DNA from: Bacteroidota bacterium
Lineage (GTDB): Bacteria; Bacteroidota; Ignavibacteria; UBA10030; UBA8401
Length of the DNA stretch: 53,815 nt
Direction of reading: 5' to 3'
NCBI GenBank assembly: GCA_019455105.1
Contig: JACFMZ010000001.1
Coordinates: forward strand, 1-53,815
Below are positions 23,585 to 25,764 of this stretch, one piece after another. The notes beneath the pieces are model-generated. The model was not told the origin of the DNA. It saw nothing but the letters and a program-made list of their open reading frames with translations, and ran no database searches. The first letter of the stretch is position 1. Each line of letters begins with the position of its first letter. Made by a program: the position numbers and the translations under genes.

Positions 23585-24439
23585 TTATTTATACACCGCA
23601 CGCACGCCGTACTCGCCTGCCGCCCACAGCGAAAGGATTGAAGTAATTCCGGCAATGGCGCGCTTCTCATCTTCTTCATGAATCACTAAACCGTAGGTAT
23701 CGGCAACAAAGTGCATATTGTCCAGAATTTTATTGGCAATGCGCCGCGGAACTCCGCCGTGCCAGAACGTTACCTGATCGAGAATCATTTCTTCATGCCG
23801 TCGTAAAAATTCTCCTAAAGAAAAAACATTTACGCTCAGCACCGTTCGCGGGCGGCATAAGGCAAGCAGGTCTTCAACATACTGATCCCAAAATTGCGCC
23901 AGCGCGCGGTTTTCCGGACGGCGCAGAAATTTTGCGCGGGCAACGGAAAATTTCGCTTTTGTTTGAACGCGAAAGCGCGGCACCACGGGATGAAAATCAT
24001 ATATTGTTTCCCAGTGTTCTTTATCGAATGAATCCCGTTCGTAATAGACCCAGATATTTTTTAACTGACTCCATGTTAATATTTTCAGTACCGCTTTGTC
24101 GCGGCTGTCGAGAATAATAAATTTTCCGGCTTCTGCTTTTACAACGGTTACCCAGTGGCTCCATTCGTACACGCAGATGAGCGAAGGAATTCCTTTGCGA
24201 AGATATTTTAATAACTGCCGCTTTGCAGTTTCCGGATTATGTTTTCGAATCATTAATAAATCGCAATGATATTCGTTGGCAGCGCGTCCCAGCTGCTTTT
24301 CATCGGTGCCGTTTTCTTCGCTTGAACGGGCAAGCCGTGTAATATCTTTTTCATCGGCAAACATGCCGAGCGTTACCATTGCGTGCTTCAGCGCGTACGG
24401 TCCGCATTGCCAGAGGTTCGGTTGTGGTTTAATGCTCAT
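23585..24439 (-). CDS. Papain-like C39-family peptidase/transferase homologue
   Basis: The 284-residue protein starts with Q6-P-N-L-W-Q-C12-G-P-Y-A-L-K-H-A. This is the bacteriocin-processing (C39) papain signature: oxyanion Gln six residues before the catalytic Cys. It continues to S-H95-W-V-T-V-V and L-D111-S-R-D, completing a Cys-His-Asp triad, and T-D-E-K-Q-L matches the family's helix. The second half (about 135-284) is all-alpha with no recognisable domain. There is no signal peptide and no ABC transporter, so this is a free-standing cytosolic enzyme. It is divergent from an ATP-grasp ligase gene. ATP-grasp plus papain-like pairs occur in predicted peptide-conjugation or peptide-metabolite systems, so processing of an ATP-grasp product is my inference. 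Confidence 0.75.
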   Translation of the reverse strand: MSIKPQPNLWQCGPYALKHAMVTLGMFADEKDITRLARSSEENGTDEKQLGRAANEYHCDLLMIRKHNPETAKRQLLKYLRKGIPSLICVYEWSHWVTVVKAEAGKFIILDSRDKAVLKILTWSQLKNIWVYYERDSFDKEHWETIYDFHPVVPRFRVQTKAKFSVARAKFLRRPENRALAQFWDQYVEDLLALCRPRTVLSVNVFSLGEFLRRHEEMILDQVTFWHGGVPRRIANKILDNMHFVADTYGLVIHEEDEKRAIAGITSILSLWAAGEYGVRAVYK

Positions 24440-24598
24440 TGAACTTTCAAAAAAATAATGTTGATAAAACTACCCAAACTTTACTGAAAGTGCAACGATG
24501 TTGTACGCAAAAAGATAATATTTTTAAAATTTAATATCCCCGGCGGCGTTCGGCGTTGATCGGCACGGAATTCTTCCGAAGAAAAAAACTGATTTTGC

Positions 24599-24636
24599 TT
24601 GCCAAATTCAGAGATGTTCAATACTATATAGATATG
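24599..24636 (+). promoter_or_regulatory. Sigma-70-like promoter placing +1 at the ATP-grasp ATG
   Basis: TTGCCA (24599-24604), a 17-base spacer and TACTAT (24622-24627) give a transcription start around 24634, which is the A of the ATG. No Shine-Dalgarno lies before that ATG. If this promoter is used the message would be leaderless. The elements are close to consensus but the region is AT-rich, so chance is possible. Confidence 0.4.
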
Positions 24637-25764
24637 GGAGCCGCCTTAAAGAAAATCTCCGTTGTCGTGCTCTACAATCACATCGGCGACGATATGTATG
24701 AGCAGATTAAGCAGGTCGATCCGGCAACGCTTGATTTTATGCCGGAATATAACATTCACGTTGCCACGGTAAGCGAAGAATATACCGCTATCGTTACGGC
24801 ATTAAAAAAAGAAGGCTATCGCGTTCGGTTAGTCAATATCGCCGAAAACCTCTCTACCCTGCAGAATGTTCTCCGCCGCAATCCGCCGGATGTTATTTTT
24901 AATCTGGTAGAATTCATTCACGACTCGCATTTTCTTGAATCCGCCGTTGCCGGAATGTTTGAGGTGTATAAAATAGCGTACACCGGATGCTCTCCTTTTT
25001 CTCTCGAACTGTGCATGCACAAAGGAATTGCAAAACAATTGCTGCAGGCAAACAACGTTCCAACACCGAAATTTATTTCACTGAACGAACTATCCATTCC
25101 CAAGCAGCACGGGTTAACGTACCCGCTGATTATTAAACCGGCGCTTGAAGATGCCAGCTCAGGCGTTGATAAAGATTCGGTTGTGTATAACTACGAAGAA
25201 CTGACGGCGCGGCTGGAAAAAATATTTAAAGAATTTCATCCCCCGATTTTGGTGGAAGAATATATTGAAGGACGCGAACTTCATGTTTCAATTCTCGGAA
25301 ACAATCCGCCGCGAATTCTTCCGCCGATTGAATTTGATTTTACCGCGCTGCCGAAAGATTTTCCCAACATTATTACGTACGATGCAAAATGGAATCCTTT
25401 AAAAGAAGAATTTCACCGTGTGCACGCTGTCTGTCCGGCGGAACTGACAAAAACAGAAATGAAAAAAGTTGAGCAGGTTTCCCTTGCCGCTTATAAAATT
25501 CTTCAATGCCGGGATTATGCGCGGTTGGATCTTCGGTTGGGAAAAGATCAGAACGTTTATGTACTGGAAGTAAATCCGAATCCCGATTTAACCGAAGGCG
25601 TTTCGTTTATGGAATCGGCGGAACATGCCGGGCTTTCATTTTCAGAAACATTGAGCATGATTGTTGATTTCGCCTATCAAAGAAAACTTCTGCGTCTTCA
25701 TCAAGAATCCGTACAGCGGGAGCTGGCAAAGAAGAAGCTGGTACAAAAGAAAAAAGAATATTAA
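24634..25764 (+). CDS. ATP-grasp ligase of the D-alanine-D-alanine ligase superfamily
   Basis: The protein is 376 residues from the ATG at 24634; an upstream in-frame TTG at 24556 would add 26 residues that are not family-like. The N-terminal pre-ATP-grasp domain is followed by C-M-H-K-G-I-A-K-Q-L-L-Q-A-N. The ATP-binding lid has Y-P-L-I-I-K-P (Lys), then I-L-V-E-E-Y-I-E-G-R-E-L. The Mg/catalytic end has Y-A-R-L-D-L-R and V-L-E-V-N-P-N-P-D-L. The C-terminus is strongly basic. The family joins an amino acid or peptide carboxylate, through an acyl-phosphate, to an amine. The true housekeeping Ddl is normally beside mur genes; here the partner is the divergent C39-like peptidase, so a specialised peptide ligase is more likely. 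The substrate is unknown. Confidence 0.82.
   Translation: MGAALKKISVVVLYNHIGDDMYEQIKQVDPATLDFMPEYNIHVATVSEEYTAIVTALKKEGYRVRLVNIAENLSTLQNVLRRNPPDVIFNLVEFIHDSHFLESAVAGMFEVYKIAYTGCSPFSLELCMHKGIAKQLLQANNVPTPKFISLNELSIPKQHGLTYPLIIKPALEDASSGVDKDSVVYNYEELTARLEKIFKEFHPPILVEEYIEGRELHVSILGNNPPRILPPIEFDFTALPKDFPNIITYDAKWNPLKEEFHRVHAVCPAELTKTEMKKVEQVSLAAYKILQCRDYARLDLRLGKDQNVYVLEVNPNPDLTEGVSFMESAEHAGLSFSETLSMIVDFAYQRKLLRLHQESVQRELAKKKLVQKKKEY

Follow-up and report, generated by a model that had tools for sequence, protein, structure and literature searches.

A C39-like papain-fold protein and an ATP-grasp ligase of the D-alanine-D-alanine ligase (Ddl) type are encoded by a divergent gene pair in the window, by which we mean the whole 53,815-nt stretch of DNA that was analysed. 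The pair is real and conserved, its association is far beyond chance, and the sources searched contain no description of the two genes together. Functional coupling is strong, with C39 present in 100 of the 103 surveyed genomes that have a pair-type ligase. Tentatively, we propose that the two enzymes form a module in the making of an amide (peptide-like) metabolite, extending a more widespread pathway that is encoded elsewhere in the genome by an operon of two ligases (LIGa and LIGb), GNAT and KamA. If true, the pair would offer a compact genetic entry to a small peptide or amide that a whole class of little-studied bacteria produces.

Layout and linkage of the gene pair

Both open reading frames that the first-pass annotation had described as a divergent pair were found. 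The C39-like gene lies on the minus strand (23585..24439, stop codon included; 284 aa) and the ligase gene on the plus strand, from an ATG at 24634 to 25764 (376 aa). The longest ligase frame starts at a TTG at 24556 (402 aa); relatives favour the ATG at 24634. Change relative to the nearest relative (L002) is biased to third codon positions, with differences at positions 1/2/3 of 0.18/0.11/0.57 for the C39 gene and 0.28/0.19/0.60 for the ligase gene, and both genes are therefore coding and constrained.

To place the pair in its class, 391 genomes sampled from the class were surveyed. A pair-type ligase, called at about 434 bits or more with the A4 profile, was present in 103; this line was chosen to match the tree and, being close to the top score of LIGb (432), may have led to a few borderline assignments. 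Co-occurrence with C39 gave a Fisher P of 9e-61, a value not corrected for ancestry. The two genes were adjacent in 85 genomes, with a median gap of 100 bp, and all 85 pairs were divergent, bearing out the proposal of a divergent neighbourhood conserved in relatives. A first, overlapping set of distinct loci with both genes gave the same arrangement (49/49 divergent, median gap 109 bp). In 15 genomes, including all f15 genomes with the ligase, the genes are unlinked yet both retained. Three ligase genomes were scored without C39, although in one of these (G077) a fragment of C39 lies on a different contig. C39 occurred without the pair ligase in 31 genomes, in one of which (G100) the ligase is cut by a contig end; since about 30 genomes have C39 without the ligase, the ligase is dispensable for C39 function. 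Separately, in G107 the C39 gene (L096 8173-9157) has a duplicated N-terminal piece and a broken frame, and the ligase is kept on another contig.

A third, small substrate gene, as had been proposed, was not seen: when the flanks of about 40 loci were clustered, no third conserved gene was seen beside the pair, and the flanks differ by lineage (MutS, HslV, isochorismatase-like, HDOD). MutS (cluster 2) was the commonest flanking cluster, at 15 loci of about 40. It was rejected as a third partner, being a matter of local synteny only, with HslV, isochorismatase-like and other genes taking its place elsewhere. With small ORFs called crudely, no carrier-protein gene was noticed among the conserved neighbours. 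No leader peptide candidate was noticed beside the pair.

The intergenic region between the two genes (24440..24633) spans 194 bp up to the ligase ATG. On the minus strand it holds a putative C39 promoter, TTGCAC at 24495-24490 and TAGTTT at 24472-24467, separated by 17 bp. A possible ligase −35 element, TTGTAC at about 24501-24506, lies back to back with it. The TTG..AAAGTTTGGGTAG pattern was found upstream of C39 in many relatives, where TTG and TAG are about 17 bp apart and the spacer AAAGTTTGGG is conserved, whether or not the ligase is present. A wider operator regulon was considered and set aside, as the spacer pattern is no commoner in the genome than a reversed control. Within the window (24467-24495), the AAAGTTTGGG spacer is more conserved among relatives than a plain promoter would require.

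The two halves of the C39-like protein

The N-terminal domain (residues about 7-156, with Q6, C12, H95 and D111) adopts the C39 papain fold, as judged by structure comparison of an AlphaFold2 model (pLDDT 88; residues 1-10 poorly placed). Its best structural match was the pseudomurein endoisopeptidase PeiR (Z 16.5, 20% identity), followed by the ComA and PCAT1 peptidase domains (Z about 15) and by CtaG (Z 10.6; Foldseek 2.9e-4). PeiR was also the best PDB profile match (5.9e-4). The residues on which the first-pass annotation based its C39 reading, the oxyanion Gln (Q6), Cys12, His95 and Asp111, are present and invariant in 47 non-redundant full-length homologues. By profile, the family of 47 is weakly C39/C39_2/BtrH_N; searches of Pfam, NCBIfam, PHROG and PADLOC gave no match of weight for the window protein itself, and nothing at E 1 against the Pfam C39 models. 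Neither Pfam nor NCBIfam has a model for this papain-fold family.

The C39 peptidases (PF03412, PF13529; ComA, PCAT1) share with this protein the fold and the order and spacing of Gln-Cys-His-Asp. In contrast to them, the protein is stand-alone and cytosolic, at 284 aa, with no ABC transporter and with an added conserved C-terminal domain. Its start does not resemble a signal peptide, and no segment looks membrane-spanning (maximum 19-residue Kyte-Doolittle mean 1.2). In agreement with the transporter having been noted as absent, no transporter gene adjoins C39 and the neighbours are not ABC exporters. PeiR, unlike the protein here, acts on the archaeal cell wall, and the remainder of PeiR is unlike the C-terminal domain described below.

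The C-terminal half, previously called helical and unexplained, is a conserved, separate helical domain with no assignable known fold (23588..23971, minus strand; residues 157-284). Mean column identity across it is 60%, and modelled alone it reached a pLDDT of 91.8. D190, R213, R214, W226, H227 and Y249 are invariant among the 47 homologues, and since these polar residues do not vary the domain is likely essential for function. Comparison with the PDB returned nothing above chance (best E 2.6, best Z 4.5), which leaves a domain without a detectable solved relative and does not in itself prove a new fold. The MgtC profile (PF02308) weakly matches the last helices, at residues 222-281 of the window protein, and does so in 12 of the 47 members (best 4.8e-4). 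We judged this match to be chance, as it covers one short helix, falls below the cut-off and involves no membrane-like stretch.

The structural matches raise the question of whether C39 is a hydrolase or a papain-fold acyl or peptidyl transferase like CtaG and BtrH, which would form an amide from an activated, possibly carrier-bound donor that the ligase supplies or activates. CtaG (closthioamide) and BtrH (butirosin) have the papain fold and a length of about 300 aa, as here, and in the closthioamide pathway the ATP-grasp enzyme CtaD partners the peptidyl transferase CtaG (PMC6772006). BtrH is itself a known papain-fold comparison (PMC10318531), and BtrH_N weakly matches 18 of the 47 family members (best 1.4e-4), although not the window protein. 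Against these likenesses, CtaG aligns with the N-terminal domain only, the C-terminal half here not being alignable, and C39 peptidases match that domain better (Z 15-16.5). In addition, the ligase is of the Ddl type and, with the crude calling of small ORFs borne in mind, no gene for a carrier protein was noticed next to the two genes. We consider a transferase of this kind unlikely.

The ligase and its relatives

Judged from its sequence, the pair ligase is a member of the ATP-grasp ligase superfamily (Dala_Dala_lig_C, PF07478; 2e-34). It had been described as a complete ATP-grasp protein, and both motifs on which this was based are there, D299-L-R301 and E312-V-N-P-N316. K130, K168, E208, R297, D299, E312 and N314 are conserved, with K130, K168, D299, E312 and N314 invariant in the pair-ligase clade, and all ATP/Mg residues are retained.

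Its PDB matches are Ddl enzymes, and together with the Dala_Dala_lig_C match this could suggest an ordinary second D-alanine-D-alanine ligase that happens to lie beside an unrelated gene. Several results make this hardly credible. On TIGR01205 the pair ligase scored 147.1 bits against a cut-off of 245.65, whereas the genome has its own Ddl, at C196, which scored 364.8 bits and exceeded the cut-off. The HGxxGE motif is also missing from the pair ligase, which shows NPNPD where Ddl has NTxPG, and the linkage of this ligase to C39 is far from random. A maximum-likelihood tree of 99 ligase sequences (midpoint root; the program flags long branches) placed the 26 Ddl sequences on one side (100/100) and the pair ligases in a clade of their own (100/99), which adjoins LIGb, with LIGa further out. 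This clade also takes in seven relatives that are apart from C39 or lie on contigs cut beside C39. The tree, the cut-off and the motifs together rule out a housekeeping Ddl; the first-pass annotation had noted that the gene does not adjoin cell-wall genes.

The pair ligase is closest to LIGb (42% identity), and LIGa and LIGb carry the same ATP and NPNPD motifs. The pair clade differs from them in its own F35 and H261, which are invariant within it and different in LIGa, LIGb and Ddl, and in being linked to C39 instead of KamA and GNAT. The clade-specific F35 and H261, with NPNPD replacing NTxPG, suggest that the amino-acid sites of the ligase are altered. Elsewhere, a short contig labelled Gemmatimonadales (L062 427-2372) holds a C39 gene (61% identical) and a ligase; because that ligase sits within the pair clade of the window's order, this copy reflects bin contamination or (recent) transfer.

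Partnerships of papain-fold and ATP-grasp proteins are known from predicted systems for peptide conjugation or amide metabolites. Predicted DUF3335 (PF11814)/RimK systems of this type were reportedly described by Iyer et al. in 2009. The DUF3335 and RimK partnership is cited in PMC10318531, and RimK/DUF3335 and CDC123-type ATP-grasp systems are predicted protein modifiers (PMC10318531, PMC4431377). In a tagging reading such as the first-pass annotation offered, the ligase would attach an amino acid or a peptide to a protein or to another peptide, and C39 would process a precursor or remove the tag. Isopeptidases and leader peptidases are indeed among the closest folds of C39 (PeiR, Z 16.5; ComA; PCAT1). 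However, no conserved small substrate gene adjoins the pair, the ligase is Ddl-like and enzymes of that class link amino acids or small amines, and C39 is retained without the ligase in about 30 genomes, so that we regard tagging as quite improbable. Nor does the pair follow DUF3335/RimK in detail: DUF3335 matches only two of the 47 C39 members (0.012), there is no GNAT fusion, and the Ddl-like ligase matched the RimK profile at E 0.085 only. The pair resembles the CtaD/CtaG, BtrH and DUF3335/RimK partnerships but fits none of these families in full, and it constitutes a further variation on the papain-fold/ATP-grasp theme.

A predicted metabolite pathway and phage copies of C39

The same genome carries a LIGa-LIGb-GNAT-KamA operon (L106 4999-8848, contig C48) that is widespread in the class and for which a literature search found no description. 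Its KamA is a lysine-2,3-aminomutase-family radical SAM protein that scored 469 bits, just under the AblA equivalog cut-off of 525, and its GNAT is RimI-like. The operon is predicted to make a beta-amino-acid or peptide-like metabolite; linked peptide ligases often carry out successive ligations in peptide-derived secondary metabolites (PMC4431377). No case was seen of the C39-ligase pair lying next to the KamA operon. The distributions are nested, the pair ligase implying C39 and C39 in turn implying the tandem operon. LIGa was present in 40 of 41 genomes with C39, compared with 27 of 354 without it, and in family f14 20 genomes have both C39 and LIGa and two have neither. This nesting, as if each step took the previous product, suggests that the pair extends the operon's pathway, and it would predict both the order of steps and the operon that supplies the substrate. 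It is partly explained by shared ancestry, and co-occurrence does not fix the order of the steps. Of the two alternatives that the first-pass annotation had offered, a peptide-metabolite pathway is favoured by the nested operon, and protein tagging is unsupported.

In the proposed extension of the operon's pathway, the ligase would form a peptide or amide bond with ATP through an acyl-phosphate, by analogy with Ddl-type ATP-grasp enzymes. As a specialised LIGb paralogue, it probably takes an acceptor related to that of LIGb and adds a different residue. C39 would act as a cytosolic thiol enzyme in which Cys12 attacks the amide, Gln6 holds the oxyanion, and His95 and Asp111 activate. The C-terminal domain, with its invariant R213, R214, W226 and H227, probably serves to recognise or cap a small substrate that bears a carboxylate. 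Most likely, C39 would trim a residue from a LIGa/LIGb-type product, or transfer one, and the ligase would then work on what C39 has made. We infer from these comparisons that the substrate is a small molecule, and the step order, the role of the C-terminal domain and the choice between amidase and acyltransferase are likewise our deductions.

C39 is also found in phages. Full-length C39 genes lie on two IMG/VR contigs that carry terminase-like genes and measure 51.6 and 63.7 kb (L207 5001-5831; L208 5001-5834); the proteins show 37-39% identity and have all catalytic and RR/WH residues. No ligase lies near these genes, no ligase relative was present in the viral contigs searched, and no C39 was found in named plasmids and phages. 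Because the phage contigs encode C39 alone, C39 is of use without the ligase, and it may act on something other than this metabolite. On the 5′ side of the phage genes lie a polynucleotide kinase and a DprA-like gene, fused to NADAR in one contig.

This setting is consistent with a part for C39 in defence, counter-defence or stress-triggered turnover that the ligase opposes, as is the finding that single-domain C39 relatives in another phage adjoin NAD-salvage genes. Such a role is nevertheless very improbable: C39 has no PADLOC or PHROG match and no PADLOC-DB family at E 1, the chromosomal copies occur widely and have housekeeping genes as neighbours, which is not the setting of a typical defence island, and a ligase relative is absent from the viral contigs searched. 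A bolder form of the metabolite proposal, which we find doubtful, is an undescribed amide-remodelling pathway in which the C39 proteins, as a new two-domain papain-fold family, act on the operon's product. It would hold that the C39 family removes or transfers a residue of the KamA-GNAT-dual-ligase peptide, that the ligase re-extends it, and that phages captured C39 to interfere with or exploit this step. The C39-bearing phages presumably infect the same hosts that carry the chromosomal pair, and the fact that phages have taken up one enzyme of the pair hints at a product of importance to the host.

Single-domain relatives of C39 were observed in two further viral contigs. One (L211 4902-5507) adjoins NAMPT and a NadR-like/NUDIX gene, and the other (L209 621-1178) adjoins a macro-like gene (PHROG 'phosphatase').
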